Assembly (NCBI RefSeq): GCF_002834295.1
Contig: NZ_PISP01000003.1
Span: 124,001 to 188,000 of the forward strand
Reading direction: 5' to 3'
Origin: Rhodohalobacter barkolensis
GTDB taxonomy: Bacteria > Bacteroidota > Rhodothermia > Balneolales > Balneolaceae
Length of the DNA: 64,000 bases
This document shows positions 3,323 to 11,006 of the stretch, piece by piece (positions within the stretch are counted from its first letter, which is position 1; every line of letters begins with the position of its first letter). A model generated the notes under the pieces. That model was not told the origin of the DNA. It was given only the letters and a program-made list of their open reading frames with translations, and did no database searches. Position numbers and translations under genes: made by a program.

Positions 3323-3377
3323 ATGAAACCACCTTTCACTTCGGTTTATGAAAAATATTCACACTCATTCCAAAATC

Positions 3378-3971
3378 ATGAAAAAATCCCTCTTTCTTTT
3401 TTTACTGATACAGATTCTTTTTGCAAGCTGGTCTTTTGCTCAGAATTCCACACTCGACTTAGAGCAGATCAATCAGGATCGACTAAGCTTAAACAGTAAC
3501 GGAATGTTTATATTGGGCGGATGGGCTATAACCAATCTGGCTATCGGGGGAATTGGCATGACTCAAACAAATGGTCGCCTAAAATATTTTCACCAAATGA
3601 ATGCGATGTGGAATACCGTGAATCTGGGTATTGCCGGTTTTGGTTACTATGGGCTACACAACTCCTCTACAAATATATCGCTTTCTGAAACCGTGAGGGA
3701 GTTCCACAATTTTGAAAACATCCTCCTGTTCAACGCGGGACTCGATGTGGGATATATGGCCATCGGAGCCTACTTATGGGAAAGGGGATTGCGCAAGGAG
3801 AGTGACAGATTGGTTGGCTACGGACAGTCAATGATCGTTCAGGGTGGATTTCTTTTTACCTTTGATGTCATTCTCTACCTGTTAAGCAAGAATCAAAGTC
3901 GTCCTTTAATGGAGAGTCTTGAAAACATCCAATTTACGGGTACTGCACTTTCTGTGACGATTCCTTTTTGA
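3378..3971 (+). CDS. DUF6992-like small membrane protein
   Basis: A protein of about 197 residues of unknown function. The chosen ATG gives a standard signal peptide (MKKSLFLFLLIQILFASWSFAQ). An in-frame ATG 30 bp upstream would add ten polar residues before it and is less likely. The mature part has several glycine-rich hydrophobic stretches (around FILGGWAITNLAIGGIGM, NLGIAGFGYYGL, GYMAIGAYLW and GGFLFTFDVILYLL), consistent with about four membrane helices. The overall look matches DUF6992 proteins, which are common in Bacteroidota. It follows pdeM by about 55 bp and may be read with it, but nothing connects it to DNA repair. Confidence 0.65.
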   Translation: MKKSLFLFLLIQILFASWSFAQNSTLDLEQINQDRLSLNSNGMFILGGWAITNLAIGGIGMTQTNGRLKYFHQMNAMWNTVNLGIAGFGYYGLHNSSTNISLSETVREFHNFENILLFNAGLDVGYMAIGAYLWERGLRKESDRLVGYGQSMIVQGGFLFTFDVILYLLSKNQSRPLMESLENIQFTGTALSVTIPF

Positions 3972-3975
3972 AAAC

Positions 3976-4530
3976 CTATTTAGAAGATTTCCTCTTATAG
4001 CAGTGATGAAGAATATTCAATATTCTGGATTTTCGAATTCGAACATTCCCACTGGAAATATTAAAGTGGTCGGCATACTCTTTACTGCTTTTATCCGGGT
4101 GCTTAAGCATATACTGAATAAGTGAACGACTTTCACGGTCAAGTTCATAGAGACACTCCTCCAGATGCTGCATTCGTTCCTCATCTACCAGGTTCCGAAT
4201 CTGCTCTGCAGGTTCAGCTTGATCATACGCTTCATCAGGTGCCGCAAAACGATGTTGATACTTTTTGTATCGAACATATTCATTTTTAACAGATAGAGTT
4301 ATGTATCGAAAAATATACTTATGCTCGCGAATTTTATCTTTTCGAATTCGATCATAAACTTCTGTAAATACTTCCTGAGTGCATTCCCGGGCTTCATTTC
4401 TGTCGGCACTCATGGTAACAACCAGATAGTCTACAATCCTGGGCATAAGTTCATCAAGCAGCCTATTTGCCGTTGAATCGTCCCCATTTTGTATAGCTTC
4501 TACCAATTCCGAATAATCAACTCTGGCCAA
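3976..4530 (-). CDS. ECF-type RNA polymerase sigma factor
   Basis: Sigma-70-family factor of 184 residues. Region 2 lies at about 25-95 (the segment with RNEARECTQEVFTEVYDRI and the aromatic stretch HKYIFRYITLSVKNEYVRYKK). Region 4 lies at about 120-180 with a helix-turn-helix (KEYADHFNISSGNVRIRKSRILNIL). There are no regions 1 or 3, as in ECF factors. The reading frame opens with TTG, since the first in-frame ATG comes only at residue 29, inside region 2, so TTG is the likely start. It is transcribed away from the twin lipoprotein genes, with a shared 272 bp control region. The anti-sigma-like gene at 8737-9471 could be its partner. The target regulon is unknown; the adjacent lipoprotein/CHAT genes are the obvious candidates. 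Confidence 0.85.
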   Translation of the reverse strand: MARVDYSELVEAIQNGDDSTANRLLDELMPRIVDYLVVTMSADRNEARECTQEVFTEVYDRIRKDKIREHKYIFRYITLSVKNEYVRYKKYQHRFAAPDEAYDQAEPAEQIRNLVDEERMQHLEECLYELDRESRSLIQYMLKHPDKSSKEYADHFNISSGNVRIRKSRILNILHHCYKRKSSK

Positions 4531-4802
4531 AACTGTTTCCTATTCTGTTAAATTTCCCCTGGTTATAAACCAAAACCATATTAACATTCCATTTGAGAGT
4601 CCGCAAAAAGAATATATAAACCGATTCAAAGAGTACAAATGATTTTTGTAAATAACATCTGTTTTCAAAATCAATTTATTAAAATTTCAATGCATCCATA
4701 GACAATTAACTTTATTTCACTTACAATTTATTTTGTAACATAATAGATACAAATTACTCTTGTTCTTAAGGACTTTTACACTTAATGATTAACTAAACTA
4801 AC

Positions 4803-5030
4803 ATGAAAACTATCATGGATACTTATAAAACAGTGATTTCAAAATTATCTTTATCTGCATTTGCTCTTTTCTTAGCTGCAGGCTGTGCAACTGTTACAGA
4901 CGCTAACATCGACCTGCCCGAAGAGAACAACGACAACATCACCACCGTAGAAAAAGCCGGGGACGTCTGGGACCAAAAAGGCGGAAATGACATGGACCCC
5001 ATTATCGTCAAACCAGAAATGACCGACTAA
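4803..5030 (+). CDS. Small lipoprotein, copy A of a tandem pair
   Basis: A 75-residue lipoprotein with no recognised family. It has a hydrophobic signal ending in a lipobox (LAAGC, Cys at about residue 28), then an acidic tail of 48 residues with a conserved end rich in Gly, Asp and Pro (WDQKGG, then IIVKPEMTD). From the lipobox Cys to the last sense codon the DNA is identical to the next gene, while the two signal peptides differ. An internal ATG at codon 5 is an alternative start. It lies between the divergent ECF sigma gene and the CHAT gene. Its size, anchoring and acidic tail could fit a periplasmic ligand, inhibitor or substrate of the CHAT protein. That is inference only. Confidence 0.72.
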   Translation: MKTIMDTYKTVISKLSLSAFALFLAAGCATVTDANIDLPEENNDNITTVEKAGDVWDQKGGNDMDPIIVKPEMTD

Positions 5031-5278
5031 CTAACTCTCTCTAACCATACGCTCAATACTTAACTCAATAAAACCGATTGCTATGAAAACTCTGATCACC
5101 GCTCTATTTACTCTCTCACTGCTCTTCGCCGGATGTGCAACTGTTACAGACGCTAACATCGACCTGCCCGAAGAGAACAACGACAACATCACCACCGTAG
5201 AAAAAGCCGGGGACGTCTGGGACCAAAAAGGCGGAAATGACATGGACCCCATTATCGTCAAACCAGAAATGACCGACT
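4884..5278 (+). repeat. 145 bp perfect direct repeat (4884-5028 and 5134-5278)
   Basis: Two copies of the same 145 bp, 250 bp apart start to start. They match base for base from the lipobox Cys codon to two bases into the stop codon, where one gene ends TAA and the other TGA. The 105 bp between the copies and the sequence on either side are not alike. The repeat therefore coincides with the mature lipoprotein coding segment. Confidence 0.95.
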
Positions 5279-5280
5279 GA
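5083..5280 (+). CDS. Small lipoprotein, copy B of a tandem pair
   Basis: A 65-residue lipoprotein. The signal (MKTLITALFTLSLLFAGC) is shorter than that of copy A and different in sequence, but the mature part after Cys17 is identical in protein and in DNA. It starts 52 bp after copy A and ends 56 bp before the CHAT gene, so the three probably form one transcript. Conservation of the mature part with divergence of the leader points to gene conversion or recent unequal duplication confined to the mature region. No known domain; the function is not known. Confidence 0.72.
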   Translation: MKTLITALFTLSLLFAGCATVTDANIDLPEENNDNITTVEKAGDVWDQKGGNDMDPIIVKPEMTD

Positions 5281-5336
5281 TATTACTTGTAATCTTAGTA
5301 TTTTTGATTACGACTATTTTTATCTAAGCTCTTTTG

Positions 5337-8300
5337 ATGTTCAAAGTCTCTCTATTACTGCTCATTATCTCTGTCTATTCAGACTCATGGACAGACTATA
5401 TCCATCAGTTCCTGGACGAGCAAATTAATAGTGAGGTCAGTTCTGAAACCGTATGGGCTACGGGCACACTTTACTATTCAAGCCCGGATGAATATCAGGA
5501 CGTGATCCTTGATCACATTGTGGATGAACAAATCAAGAGTTATTTACAGGGGAATAGTGACTTAAAGGACTACATTCAGCAAATGAGTTTCCATCTTGAA
5601 GATGAACATTTGCTCCTTTCATATTTGCTGCTCGAAGAAGATATCGAAAGACGTACAGAGATTTACGAGAGCTTCTATAACAACTACCCGGGTTTAGGTC
5701 TCAGGGAGTTAAATGATCTTGTTAAAGACGGAGAAAAATTAGACGAAAAAAGCATTGCCAATTCAATCATTGGTTTTGAACATTTCCTGATTTCTTTCCA
5801 CGTGAGCAACAATAACGTTACGTCAGATGAATTTTTCAATCAGGTCAAAGCTCTTTGGCAACAGTCCGGTGGATCATCTGTTATCCCCACAACAAGTAAA
5901 AGCTATCAAATTGCATCCATTCTAAAGGCATACTACGAAACCGGCGAGTATGGATCCATCAATGGACTTTACAATGAGTTTCATCATCTCCAAAACTTAC
6001 CGCATTCAAAAATAAAATTAAACTTGCTGTGGGGTGCTGAATTTGCCTTATATCGATTGGGATATGTGGATAAAAGCCTTGAAACACAGAGAAAATTTAC
6101 CATCCCAATCAGTAGTTTCCTTGAGCTCAACTCCACATTGAACTCAATCTTAGCTTCCCACGGAGGGTATCTTTATCAAATTGGGAAATATCAGGAAGCT
6201 AAGAACACATTTTTATCCATATTGGATCAGGCTGAAAATCTGCCTTTATCATTTCAAGCTAGCTTATACAACAATTTAAGTCTTGTACTCTACAAAACCG
6301 GTGAATCCTCAAATTATATTGAAACACAATTAAAAGCTCTTGAAATAGCAGATGAACTTGAAAATCATGATTTCAAAAGTAGGATTTTAAGAAATCTTCA
6401 CATTTTTTATGCACAAAACAAAAATTGGAGATTGGCTACTGAATATATTGACGAAGCTGCAAACTTAGCATATAAAGTTGAAAATAAAGACGAGTTAATT
6501 TCAATCCACATATCAAAAGCAGATTTCACATATAATAGTCTTAACGATAGTGAAGCAGCCTTTCGATATTTAGAGTTAGCAAATTCATTCGTTGATGACA
6601 ACACATTACCTAGATTTAAACTTAGAGTTTTATTTCAAAGAGCTCAATTATTAAAGCGTGAAAAAAGGTTTAATGAAAGTCTCAACGTTTTAAATGAAAT
6701 AATTGCTATAACCGGCGGTCAATCGGATACTGTTAGATACTTAGAAGCAATGATTCGTTTGGGGCAGATCAATCTGGAACTAGGAGACCCTCTCGAGGCA
6801 AGACAACTTATGCGTGAGGTCCGAGCTCATGATATGACTGATCTCGAATTTTCTGTTCTTATTCTAGCTCAAACCGTTCAAGCACAGATTGCTCAGCATT
6901 TTGGTGATCCTTTGGAAGCAGACCGGTTGTATTCAGAAGCAGCTGATTTAGTGTTTGAACGTTCACGAAATACCTCTGAAGCCGAATCCGGATATTGGAC
7001 CGTCGAAGAAGATTATCTTTACCTGTTTGAAAAATATGCCGATTTTCTCCTGGATAATGAGCTGTACACTGATGCTCTGATGTTGTTTGATCGTATCAAA
7101 ACCATCAACGATGCTACCCTGACTGAGAATCCACTGGTCCGATCTTCCAGACAAAGTGAGGAGTCGCTTACAGAGATTCAAAACCTAACCCAGGAGATGG
7201 ATCGAGTAAGAAGAGAAATTTTAACGTCGAATGACGACAACCGTCTTACACTCCAAAACAGGCTTGCCCGTTTGTCAGCCGAGCGAAAATCGTTAACTGA
7301 ATCGGACCAAAACAGACTTGAAAGTGAACCGGTTAATATTCTCTCCATTCAACGTCAACTTAGAGATTCACAAACATTACTGCACCTCACTGAAATTGGA
7401 CAAAATATCTTTCTGGCAGTTTTACAAAGAGACGATTTACAAATCAAGAAACTACCCCTCAATAACGAAAATCGACAACTTTTTGAAGCTGCTACTGAGT
7501 CTATTCTGGTGGGAAGAACTGAATTGGATAAATTATACCAGATAGGACAATTAATTAACATAGACGATATTGCAAGCCATTCTAATTCTATCATTGTGAT
7601 GCCGGATGGATTTTTCCATCAGCTGCCATTAGGTGTTATCCCGGTCCAGTCACCAATTTCTCCCTACAGTTACGGTTCTGCACAATATCTTATTGAAGAA
7701 GCTGAAGTTCGAAATCTGAACAGTTTAAAAGATATGACGGAGCGAGCTGTACGAACAGATCATCAGTTCGGTTTTTCAGGTTTTGGCGTAGACGACTTCC
7801 AGAATGAGGCTACATCAAGAAGCTTGGTATCACTTCCCAAAGCACCAATGGAAATTTCCTCTATTAATCAGCAGTTAAACCGTTTAAATAATAACCGGAC
7901 ATTTATTAATGAGTCTGCGACTGTTAGCCAATTTCAACAAACAGCCGGTAACAGTAAAATTCTTCACATGGCAACTCACAGTGAAGTGTCAGAAAGTGAT
8001 CCTCTTTTCTCAACACTCCATTTTTATGCCGATGAGACTGAAAACTCTGAACAGGTTCTCACAGGCCGGCTTTTTGCGTATGAACTGTTTGACCTGAATC
8101 TGCAAAATGATCTGATTATGCTTAACTCCTGTGAATCCGGTGGCGACCGATTTCTACAGGGAAGTGGTGTAATGGGAATCAGCAGGGCACTCAGGTATGC
8201 CGGAGCGAAAAGCCTCGTACTTAATTCCTGGTCCGTAAATGACCAGTATGCAGCTGAATTTGCTGAAGAATTTTATAAACATCTGAATAACGGTGAAAAT

Positions 8301-8507
8301 AAATCCAGAGCTCTTCAGCTCGCTAAAGTTCATTTCATTAAAAATAAAAATGCAAACCCGCACTTTTGGGGACCTTACATTCTGAATGGAGACAACCGGC
8401 CAATTGTAAACAGTAACAAATGGTTTGCAGGTACTCTACTTTTAGCATTGGTATTCTTGTCAGGTTTAGTCTTTACCGGTCGCCGAAAACAAAAACTGGC
8501 AGCCTGA
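5337..8507 (+). CDS. TPR protein with C-terminal CHAT (caspase-like) peptidase domain
   Basis: About 1056 residues. The frame can be read from a TTG at 5334, but the ATG at 5337 is the natural start. It gives a short hydrophobic leader (MFKVSLLLLIISVYS), so export is likely. Residues of about 200-590 form tetratricopeptide-type helical repeats. A coiled segment lies around 610-660, and the CHAT domain fills about 690-1025. The catalytic His of HMATHS (about 880) and the Cys of MLNSCESGG (about 932) are both present, so it should be an active cysteine peptidase. A final helix (WFAGTLLLALVFLSGLVF) followed by RRKQK looks like an inner-membrane anchor. It sits downstream of the twin lipoproteins and between the ECF and anti-sigma-like genes. 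CHAT proteins in other systems are proteolytic effectors; the substrate here is unknown. Confidence 0.88.
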   Translation: MFKVSLLLLIISVYSDSWTDYIHQFLDEQINSEVSSETVWATGTLYYSSPDEYQDVILDHIVDEQIKSYLQGNSDLKDYIQQMSFHLEDEHLLLSYLLLEEDIERRTEIYESFYNNYPGLGLRELNDLVKDGEKLDEKSIANSIIGFEHFLISFHVSNNNVTSDEFFNQVKALWQQSGGSSVIPTTSKSYQIASILKAYYETGEYGSINGLYNEFHHLQNLPHSKIKLNLLWGAEFALYRLGYVDKSLETQRKFTIPISSFLELNSTLNSILASHGGYLYQIGKYQEAKNTFLSILDQAENLPLSFQASLYNNLSLVLYKTGESSNYIETQLKALEIADELENHDFKSRILRNLHIFYAQNKNWRLATEYIDEAANLAYKVENKDELISIHISKADFTYNSLNDSEAAFRYLELANSFVDDNTLPRFKLRVLFQRAQLLKREKRFNESLNVLNEIIAITGGQSDTVRYLEAMIRLGQINLELGDPLEARQLMREVRAHDMTDLEFSVLILAQTVQAQIAQHFGDPLEADRLYSEAADLVFERSRNTSEAESGYWTVEEDYLYLFEKYADFLLDNELYTDALMLFDRIKTINDATLTENPLVRSSRQSEESLTEIQNLTQEMDRVRREILTSNDDNRLTLQNRLARLSAERKSLTESDQNRLESEPVNILSIQRQLRDSQTLLHLTEIGQNIFLAVLQRDDLQIKKLPLNNENRQLFEAATESILVGRTELDKLYQIGQLINIDDIASHSNSIIVMPDGFFHQLPLGVIPVQSPISPYSYGSAQYLIEEAEVRNLNSLKDMTERAVRTDHQFGFSGFGVDDFQNEATSRSLVSLPKAPMEISSINQQLNRLNNNRTFINESATVSQFQQTAGNSKILHMATHSEVSESDPLFSTLHFYADETENSEQVLTGRLFAYELFDLNLQNDLIMLNSCESGGDRFLQGSGVMGISRALRYAGAKSLVLNSWSVNDQYAAEFAEEFYKHLNNGENKSRALQLAKVHFIKNKNANPHFWGPYILNGDNRPIVNSNKWFAGTLLLALVFLSGLVFTGRRKQKLAA

Positions 8508-8676
8508 AATTCTAAATCTAAGAGGTGATTTCACTCCTTTTACCACTCAGTCATTCTGGCAAATAACAGTCCCGCACTATTCCCCCACTCTTTTTATCTG
8601 TTAACACTCTTTCACCAACTCTCTCCCATTGCTTAATTACTATATCCCCTCTTTGAAACCGTAAATCTTTTGCATA

Positions 8677-8720
8677 AAAAAAACCCGGCTTCAAATTTTG
8701 ATGAGACCGGGTTTTAAATG
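8677..8720. terminator. Bidirectional rho-independent terminator
   Basis: AACCCGG and CCGGGTT arms with an 18-nt loop, between the convergent CHAT gene and the anti-sigma-like gene. An A-run on the left flank gives a long U-run for the leftward transcript. The rightward transcript has a shorter T-run, so it may work both ways. Confidence 0.8.
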
Positions 8721-8736
8721 TGATTTAAATAATTGC

Positions 8737-9471
8737 TTATTCAGAGGCGAGCGCCTGAATGTAACGTTCGGCAACTCGGCTGTAAGCTCCATTCAACTGA
8801 TAGGCTTTTTCCAGTGTTGTTCTAGCCTCTTCTATTCGATTCAGCTGAAAATATGTATTTCCTAAATACCAATAACTCTGTTCCTGGATTATGATATTTT
8901 CAATCTCATAATCAAGAGAGCGTTCAAAGTAATCCGCAGCTTCAGTATACATTCCTTCATTGTAATATATAGATCCTGCTGTAGCGAGCAGTTCGGCCTT
9001 ACCTTCCGGAGTGCTAATGTCAGACAATCGCTGATCAACAATAGAAATTGCTGATGAGATATTTCCTCTGTTAGCCTCAGCTATTACAGACATGATAATT
9101 TCAGTAACATCTGTAGATTCAGTAACACCCTCTGCCGATCTGTAATAATCCAGTTCAATAGAACCAATCGGTTGAACTGCAAATTCTTGTTCGTTATATA
9201 CGTTGAAGAGAATTAAACCGGATGCAATAATAACAATGGCTGCAGCTGCAATCCATTGAAATACAGGTCTTTGAGTAAGAAATCGAATATTCTGTTTTCT
9301 TTCGCCATTGGCCAGGCTTTTCAAACTGGCTACGGTTTTTAAATAATCGTAGTAGTAGTCATCAAAAATAATTTCAGACCACAGTTCATCAATTTCATTT
9401 TCATTAAGATTTCCACTTACATATTGGTCAATCTTTTCTTCAAGTTCTTTATTTGTATTGCTCTCAATCAT
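8737..9471 (-). CDS. Membrane TPR protein resembling an anti-sigma factor
   Basis: 244 residues from the ATG at 9471 (a TTG three codons upstream is also in frame). The N-terminal 75 residues are cytosolic and acidic, and resemble the short helical anti-sigma domains found next to Bacteroidota ECF factors. A single transmembrane helix follows (WIAAAAIVIIASGLILF, about 79-95). The periplasmic part (about 135-244) contains two or three TPR-type repeats, for example AGSIYYNEGMYTEAADYFERSL and YLGNTYFQLNRIEEARTTLEKA. It faces the CHAT gene convergently and lies about 4.2 kb from the ECF gene. I infer a membrane-spanning sensor that holds the ECF factor. No zinc-finger anti-sigma motif is present. 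Confidence 0.65.
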   Translation of the reverse strand: MIESNTNKELEEKIDQYVSGNLNENEIDELWSEIIFDDYYYDYLKTVASLKSLANGERKQNIRFLTQRPVFQWIAAAAIVIIASGLILFNVYNEQEFAVQPIGSIELDYYRSAEGVTESTDVTEIIMSVIAEANRGNISSAISIVDQRLSDISTPEGKAELLATAGSIYYNEGMYTEAADYFERSLDYEIENIIIQEQSYWYLGNTYFQLNRIEEARTTLEKAYQLNGAYSRVAERYIQALASE

Positions 9472-9881
9472 ATCTATCAATTTGATCGTATTGGCGTAAA
9501 ATTTCGATTGCTAATCTTTATTCTCTGTATGCCAACTATTTTGTCACACATTTGAATGGTGCTATTCAAACCCCTATGAACCTTTGGTACTTTATATTTG
9601 AGGATTTTCAATTATATAAACTTTTTACCTTCTTCGAAGTTGCTAAATCTATTAAGTTCTGTCCGAAAATCCCTACAAAATTGCTGTGTATTTCGGTTTG
9701 CTTACGTACGGCTTTTATGTCAATATTCAGTCGATATATCGTTACTTACACTTACAAGAGTAATCCACCAATATTTTGTTACAAAATAAAAGGTTAAAAA
9801 GTTTTAATATATGGTCTTATTTGCCGCCTGTTAAAAAACGGTAAAATCAATAATATCAACACTTAATATTTTTTTAATTTG
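9472..9881. other. Intergenic region with divergent promoters
   Basis: About 410 bp of AT-rich DNA between the leftward anti-sigma-like gene and the rightward GH3 gene. Two short overlapping frames are present, but neither has a protein-like composition or a signal peptide, and I do not call them. It contains two copies of ATTTTGTNACA (9538-9548 and 9773-9783); a third lies upstream of the lipoprotein pair (4730-4740). No terminator or RNA structure was recognised. Confidence 0.5.
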
Positions 9882-11006
9882 ATGGAAAAACTTCACTTTT
9901 CAATTCTTTTACTAATTTTTCTCTTTTTTTGTAACACATCCTGCAGTCAGCCTGTAACAGATGAAACTATACCTCTGGATGAAAAAATTGGAGAACTTCT
10001 TATGGTGGGATTCAAGGGATTTGCCATTGAAGACACCAGTCACATAATAAGAGATATTCAGGATTATCATCTGGGCGGTGTTATTCTATTTGATTATGAT
10101 GTCCCCACATCCACTCCGCAGAGAAATATTCAATCGTTTGAACAAGTACTCAATCTTAATTCAGAACTGCAGAAGCTATCCGATAAACAACTCCTGATCG
10201 CAATTGATCAGGAAGGTGGACGAGTTGCCAGACTGAAGCCGGACAGAGGTTTTGAGCTACACGTTTCAGCTCAATATTTGGGACAAATCGATGATACTGA
10301 CACAACTCGATCCTACGCTTCTTCCATGAGTGAACAATTAAATGAACTCGGCTTTAACATCAACTTTGCACCTGTAGTAGATCTAAATACAAATCCTCAA
10401 AATCCGGTTATTGGTGCAATTGAACGAAGTTTTGGTGCTGATCCGGATCTGGTAACAAAGCACGCTTCTATTTTCCTGAATGAGTTTGAAAAAAATGGCA
10501 TAATCGGCGTCATTAAACACTTCCCGGGGCACGGTAGCGCATGGAATGATTCTCACGTGGGAATGGCCGATGTTACAGAAACATGGGATGATTCTGAACT
10601 AAAGCCCTATCAAAATTTGATCGAATCCGATCGGAATTTCGCCATAATGACGGCTCATGTGTTTAATGAAAATCTCGACACTGAATTTCCGGCCACACTT
10701 TCCAGAACCGTTCAAACTGACCTTTTGCGGGATCAACTCAGGTATGAAGGCGTACTTTTTTCGGATGATATGCAGATGGAAGCAATCCGGTCATTTTACG
10801 GACTTGAAATGGCCATCATACAAACCATTAATGCCGGTGTTGATATCTTAGTGTTTGGCAACAACTCCATTTATGACCCTGAGATTGTCCCAAAAGCTGT
10901 TGAAATCATCAAGAATAGTATACAGTCCGGAGAAATCCCGGAAGATCGTATTCATGAATCATATGAAAGAGTCCAAGCATTAAAAGAAAAACTGTCAGAT
11001 GGGTAA
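9882..11006 (+). CDS. Glycoside hydrolase family 3 lipoprotein (beta-N-acetylhexosaminidase-like)
   Basis: 374 residues from the ATG at 9882 (a TTG directly before it is also in frame). The lipoprotein signal ends near NTSCSQ. The single GH3 catalytic domain carries the NagZ-type signature KHFPGHGS (about 212) with the later LNAG-like block replaced by SRTVQTDLLR. FSDDMQMEAI (about 294) supplies the Asp nucleophile, and AIDQEGGRVARL is the substrate-binding block. This short form, without a C-terminal fibronectin domain, is typical of beta-N-acetylglucosaminidases that act on cell-wall fragments. Anchoring in the envelope fits peptidoglycan recycling or chitin-fragment use. It overlaps the next gene by 8 bp. 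Confidence 0.88.
   Translation: MEKLHFSILLLIFLFFCNTSCSQPVTDETIPLDEKIGELLMVGFKGFAIEDTSHIIRDIQDYHLGGVILFDYDVPTSTPQRNIQSFEQVLNLNSELQKLSDKQLLIAIDQEGGRVARLKPDRGFELHVSAQYLGQIDDTDTTRSYASSMSEQLNELGFNINFAPVVDLNTNPQNPVIGAIERSFGADPDLVTKHASIFLNEFEKNGIIGVIKHFPGHGSAWNDSHVGMADVTETWDDSELKPYQNLIESDRNFAIMTAHVFNENLDTEFPATLSRTVQTDLLRDQLRYEGVLFSDDMQMEAIRSFYGLEMAIIQTINAGVDILVFGNNSIYDPEIVPKAVEIIKNSIQSGEIPEDRIHESYERVQALKEKLSDG

Follow-up and report, generated by a model that had tools for sequence, protein, structure and literature searches.

The lipoprotein locus and its gene neighbourhood

The window analysed here, a stretch of 64,000 nucleotides of Rhodohalobacter barkolensis (genome G000; contig NZ_PISP01000003.1, positions 124,001 to 188,000), lies in a genome of 3.6 Mb assembled in seven contigs, on one of 585 kb. 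Two small open reading frames of 75 and 65 aa lie within 4803-5280 and encode predicted lipoproteins. In Balneolaceae such genes belong to a module with the order sigma-like gene, tandem lipoprotein array, TPR-CHAT peptidase and convergent membrane TPR protein. The features of the window locus are as follows.

3348..3971, + strand: DUF6992 membrane protein, commonly a syntenic neighbour
3976..4530, - strand: ECF-like sigma factor gene, divergent, the family-wide anchor of the module
4733..4762, + strand: predicted ECF-type promoter TTGTAAC-N17-CTCTTG, 5' of the lipoprotein array
4803..5030, + strand: lipoprotein gene A, 23-aa leader, ATG at 4815 (possible upstream start at 4803)
4884..5028, + strand: copy A of the mature lipoprotein block, from the Cys codon through the stop-codon T (sequence, repeat finder, alignment)
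5083..5280, + strand: lipoprotein gene B, 17-aa leader (type B)
5134..5278, + strand: copy B of the same 145-nt block (sequence, repeat finder, alignment)
5334..8507, + strand: TPR-CHAT protein with His/Cys dyad motif; N-terminal hydrophobic stretch and C-terminal transmembrane segment (TM) assigned by eye
8737..9480, - strand: convergent TM and TPR protein, candidate anti-sigma factor
9755..9784, - strand: second TTGTAAC-N17-CTCTTG site, oriented towards the TM-TPR gene

The sigma gene reached 40.2 bits against TIGR02937 (curated cut-off 42.9), and its Pfam region 4 match also fell under the cut-off. The CHAT domain scores well above its gathering cut-off (PF12770, 150.3 bits vs 24) and its His (HS) and Cys (NSC) motifs are kept in 35 of 35 orthologs, with protease activity being putative; where the locus is contiguous, the gene almost always lies 3' of the array. 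Conservation of the convergent TM-TPR gene extends to 33 loci; judged by eye, its product has a short N-terminal head followed by a TM. A Pfam search of this protein returned TPR and a few weak, unrelated repeats and no anti-sigma domain; this single-span protein may act as the anti-sigma factor. Evolutionary rates differ across the module: identity to the nearest species (G009) is about 66% for both the lipoprotein and the CHAT protein vs 93% for the sigma factor.

Twin lipoprotein genes share an identical mature part

Direct reading and pairwise alignment both showed exact identity over 145 nt between 4884-5028 and 5134-5278. The block opens with the lipobox Cys codon (TGT) and closes with the first base, T, of the stop codon; the base that follows differs (TAA vs TGA). 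A repeat finder run on the window reported the block as 151 nt at 99% with a spacing of 250. Aligned over 147 bases, the two mature parts agree at 146, and across 48 codons there is neither a synonymous nor a nonsynonymous difference. What sets the start of identity at the Cys is a single difference in the Gly codon before it, at the third base (GGC in A, GGA in B), so that the 5' edge of the block is fixed only to about one codon. Outside the block, leader A (MDTYKTVISKLSLSAFALFLAAG) and leader B (MKTLITALFTLSLLFAG) have no relation in sequence, the flanks are unrelated as well (12 of 40 bases the same upstream, 8 of 40 downstream), and so is the spacer. A genome-wide search found no further copies beyond A and B. 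Chance is excluded as the source of this identity, and the initial annotation, which had described a 145-bp unit running from the Cys codon into the stop with no synonymous change behind unrelated leaders and flanks, is borne out.

The identity between A and B is set against strong divergence between species. None of the 29.3 synonymous sites differs between A and B, whereas 16.7 of 30.5 do when A is compared with the G009 first copy. Supposing that A and B had been separate since the split from G009, the probability of zero synonymous changes is about 3e-11. Purifying selection at the DNA level, for instance through an overlapping RNA or strict codon use, could also hold two copies identical, and the lack of any synonymous change is what speaks for it. 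However, the same codons vary freely among species (pS 0.55, pN 0.20) and no Rfam family was found at 4400-10000; we consider this explanation barely credible.

Leaders are older than the mature parts behind them

The signal peptides of the array fall into two types that recur across Rhodohalobacter. The first-copy leader is 23 aa long in all of G000, G003, G009, G015, G019 and G022, and the window's type A leader is orthologous to those in the first copies of G009, G019, G003 and G022. The later-copy leader is 17-18 aa long in G000, G003 and G015, as well as in the intact copy of G024; the type B leader of window gene B (17 codons) matches these by length, position and 37-41 of 50 bases, on which its assignment as an ortholog is based. 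The constancy of this arrangement indicates that the leaders are older than the species. Between the first copies of the window and G009, 60 of 69 leader bases are alike but just 108 of 147 in the mature part. When adjacent segments were examined for an older history, leader A proved more similar to its G009 counterpart than to leader B. Leader and mature part of one gene thus have two histories, which is a signature of exchange.

These comparisons bear directly on the origin of the twin genes. The initial annotation had offered two causes, recent gene conversion or a very recent event that duplicated the mature segment behind another signal. The latter, a single event in this species that placed a copy of the mature part behind a pre-existing signal peptide, gains some appeal from the exact identity and from a border at the Cys codon that resembles a junction. 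In G003 and G015, nevertheless, each of the two positions already has its leader type attached to a mature part, and type B recurs in G024, so that both genes must predate the identity of A and B; G009 likewise has two copies, which share the same 126-nt run, and tract borders differ in other genomes. A recent duplication of this kind is therefore very improbable, and of the two proposed causes it is gene conversion that agrees with the older leaders and with the recurrence described below.

Two further observations concern the leaders. In G099, G089, G003 and G015 (loci L074, L089, L051 and L054), the first-copy leader escapes homogenisation while the later copies share theirs. In G024 (L057), a decayed first copy, seemingly without the lipobox Cys, lies between the sigma gene and the intact type B copy. 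As the initial annotation suggested, two identical products behind unlike leaders may differ in how or when they are processed.

Homogenisation recurs across the order

Used directly as a query against genome contigs, the lipoprotein returned no related loci, being too short and too variable; loci in relatives were found with the sigma gene as anchor, and more than 50 homologous loci were read. Arrays comprise one to six small lipoproteins per locus: one or more complete copies lie between sigma and CHAT in 41 loci, 26 of which have two to six, copy numbers from draft genomes being lower bounds. Mature parts within a genome diverge by a median of 2.2%, vs 7.8-46% to the nearest copy from another genome. 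In a tree of 81 mature parts, copies formed a clade of their own for 24 of the 26 multi-copy genomes, the exceptions being G067, in which one copy is old and diverged, and G078, whose near-zero branches do not fix the order. Arrays associated with a more distant sigma factor or found in other families of the order are likewise tandem, with near-identical copies within a genome (four copies in G005; two each in G017, G021, G039, G068 and G074). By this sequence pattern, the array is a recurrent, order-wide instance of concerted evolution. Diverged mature parts without signs of exchange, which the initial annotation had named as the contrary outcome, were looked for in these relatives, and the same homogenisation was found instead, partial tracts included.

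The extent of the homogenised tract differs between species. In most relatives, the leader is homogenised along with the mature part. In G015, the tract is partial: divergence covers the leader and the N-terminal half, near-identity the C-terminal half, and the breakpoint lies within the mature part. In G069, the entire 201-nt open reading frame is identical between unrelated flanks. Given this partial tract and this whole-gene tract, the lipobox border in the window is best read as the end of alignable homology.

Tandem duplication is the other process to be weighed against these patterns. Copy number ranges from 1 to 6, and leader and spacer are near-identical too in G060, G094 and the later copies of G099 and G003; some of these copies are clearly fresh duplicates, and fresh tandem duplication by unequal crossing-over fits them equally well. 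As the general source of alike copies, however, such duplication cannot place the same mature part behind leaders that are both old and distinct (G000 and, in part, G015), and leaves unexplained both the partial tract of G015 and the identical open reading frames between unrelated flanks in G069. Only an intragenic crossover would rescue this account, and such a crossover is itself homologous exchange; we regard the account as improbable. Homogenisation of the twin mature parts, as judged from these comparisons, is in our view very likely.

The pattern is not an assembly artefact

Near-identical copies of about short-read length (145 nt) raise the question of whether an assembler placed one consensus at both positions, and many relatives do show contig breaks or N gaps precisely at the array. 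In 18 relatives, contigs break between sigma and CHAT, and some assemblies have N gaps there; in 9 of these 18 broken genomes, exact matches of 55-234 nt link the sigma-side contig end to the CHAT-side one, and this is what near-identical copies should produce when they stall short-read assembly. In the window, by contrast, the array is embedded in the 585-kb contig and each copy has unrelated flanks. Relatives with single-contig genomes (G060, G094) show the same thing, as do many other relatives, and the copies of relatives often carry a few synonymous differences, unlike a copied consensus. Since the pattern persists in contiguous genomes, often together with such differences, the homogenisation is no artefact of assembly, an explanation to which we assign only a very slight chance. 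Breaks or N gaps at the array were observed in the public assemblies of G009, G071, G075, G076, G090, G096, G114 and others, so that array copy number is probably underestimated.

Proposed mechanism

Taken together, we consider it probable that the locus is a two-gene tandem lipoprotein array in which homologous exchange, occurring again and again, maintains the identity of the mature parts. Gene conversion between the copies would keep the mature parts identical, and unequal crossing-over would be a related route that also alters copy number; with one genome per species, gene conversion and cycles of unequal crossing-over fit alike. The agent would presumably be RecA-type exchange, extending as far as the copies remain alignable. 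In the window, leaders and spacers are too diverged to pair, and for this reason the tract would stop at the lipobox on one side and the stop codon on the other.

A predicted ECF-type promoter precedes the array

The motif TTGTAAC-N17-CTCTTG occurs at two sites in the window (0.07 expected). Across relatives, 40 of the 44 loci carry TGTAAC-N16/17-CTCTT ahead of the first lipoprotein, vs 0.02 expected from shuffled sequence, and the spacer is 17 in 56 of 60 bipartite motif sites. The exact motif had 202 matches in 92 genomes, the reversed pattern about 9 or more. Genomes with a close ortholog of the sigma factor carry a mean of 3.4 sites, vs 0.56 in those without (p 1e-9, with genomes taken as independent). 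An AAC-containing -35 element is typical of ECF promoters. We consider it fairly likely, from this co-occurrence, that the divergent ECF-like sigma is linked to the promoter of the array and would transcribe both the array and the TM-TPR gene, and the convergent TM-TPR protein may in turn control this sigma factor.

Further sites were detected elsewhere in the genome, at G000:C1:1188808 (L195; counterpart L200 in G019) and G000:C6:383477 (L198; counterpart L199 in G019). These sites and their counterparts lie in front of genes for a membrane-anchored protein of 202 aa and for an FtsX/MacB-like permease, both of which are likely members of the predicted regulon. In many genera (e.g. L058, L078 and L098), two same-strand promoter copies lie about 80 or 130 nt apart before the first lipoprotein. 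An inverted repeat, TTACAA..TTGTAA, was considered as an operator in Rhodohalobacter and rejected, as it is not conserved beyond close relatives. A search for terminator-like sites in 4500-5400 found none.

A lipoprotein family of the order Balneolales

Array lipoproteins combine a lipobox and a CA[ST]VTDA... motif with an acidic middle and a C-terminal [DE]PI..KP. The lipobox Cys is invariant in 22 of 22 aligned family members, the leader qualifies as a signal peptide, and an envelope location would follow for the mature protein. Single-sequence folding gave a leader helix only, with the remainder as low-confidence coil. No Pfam match was obtained at E 1e-3, and none of the known small lipoprotein families considered (Lpp/OprI, entericidin, staphylococcal Lpl) gave a family-model match at cut-off; the NCBIfam alanine-zipper model scored 14.8 bits (cut-off 43). 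NCBIfam matches of lipoprotein B to the Shiga toxin B-subunit were dismissed as chance (about 12-15 bits vs a cut-off of at least 165), and they fall largely on the signal-peptide part. A phylum-wide profile search beyond Balneolales returned just two weak matches, inside 833-aa frames, and the family thus looks order-specific.

Two kinds of role can be envisaged for these proteins: abundant stress-induced components of the envelope, or substrates or regulators of the TPR-CHAT peptidase. We favour the former, in which case the copies would serve dosage. That the lipoproteins are functional partners (substrate or regulator) of the adjacent TPR-CHAT protein, whose divergence from G009 is similar to theirs, is a guess, to which we give somewhat less than even chances. 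A more elaborate and rather unlikely scenario is that of a Balneolales-specific envelope signalling module, in which CHAT would recognise or cut the lipoproteins and thereby set the sigma/TM-TPR switch, and a uniform mature sequence would be needed for a fast-evolving partner. If this were true, homogenisation would be selected against interference between copies, and the first-copy leader would be kept apart for its own regulation.

Relation to known systems and significance

Long-lasting concerted evolution of prokaryotic protein genes has been described as rare, with 26 genes reported (Wang and Chen 2018, PMC6053082). As in tufA/tufB, the ammonia-oxidation genes, fla and mtrA (PMC6053082), paralogs of the Balneolaceae array are closer within a species than orthologs are between species, synonymous sites included, and the pattern recurs across a whole clade. 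However, the genes of that report are mostly conserved ones of core pathways, whereas the present case involves a fast-evolving lipoprotein of about 65 aa, in a tandem array of variable copy number, of which some species homogenise the mature part only. The staphylococcal lpl cluster also consists of tandem lipoprotein paralogs and is thought to evolve via exchange through conserved internal DNA (PMC4470592). Unlike the Balneolaceae array, lpl genes have variable 5' and 3' regions within a cluster and are island-borne in Firmicutes, and their products are unrelated to the lipoproteins described here, which have no Pfam match. Homologous recombination between small tandem paralogs likewise leads to expansion, loss and mosaicism among the T7SS immunity genes esaG and tipC (PMC9484751), but these are strings of non-identical genes for unrelated proteins, whereas exchange in Balneolaceae erases diversity within the genome.

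ECF sigma/anti-sigma envelope-stress circuits, the subject of two reviews (PMC8103513, PMC8999054), are the closest parallel for regulation. The module resembles such circuits in its divergent ECF-like sigma gene, in a two-part promoter whose -35 element contains AAC, in a nearby membrane protein with a short cytosolic head, and in envelope targets. It differs in its predicted effectors, namely the homogenised lipoproteins and a TPR-CHAT protein resembling a peptidase, and in the TPR part of the candidate anti-sigma factor. A literature search, with subscription papers mostly outside its reach, returned no description of a sigma-lipoprotein-CHAT module. Homogenised twin genes are thus the product of a known process, and it is the module and the order-wide recurrence that appear undescribed in the literature covered.

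In most Balneolaceae genera, concerted evolution is seen here in a tiny, fast-changing lipoprotein array. Since fully, partly and un-homogenised species stand side by side, the borders and rates of exchange tracts and the role of the homology limit become measurable. The four-gene envelope module also comes with a recognisable promoter, which makes its putative regulon predictable and testable.
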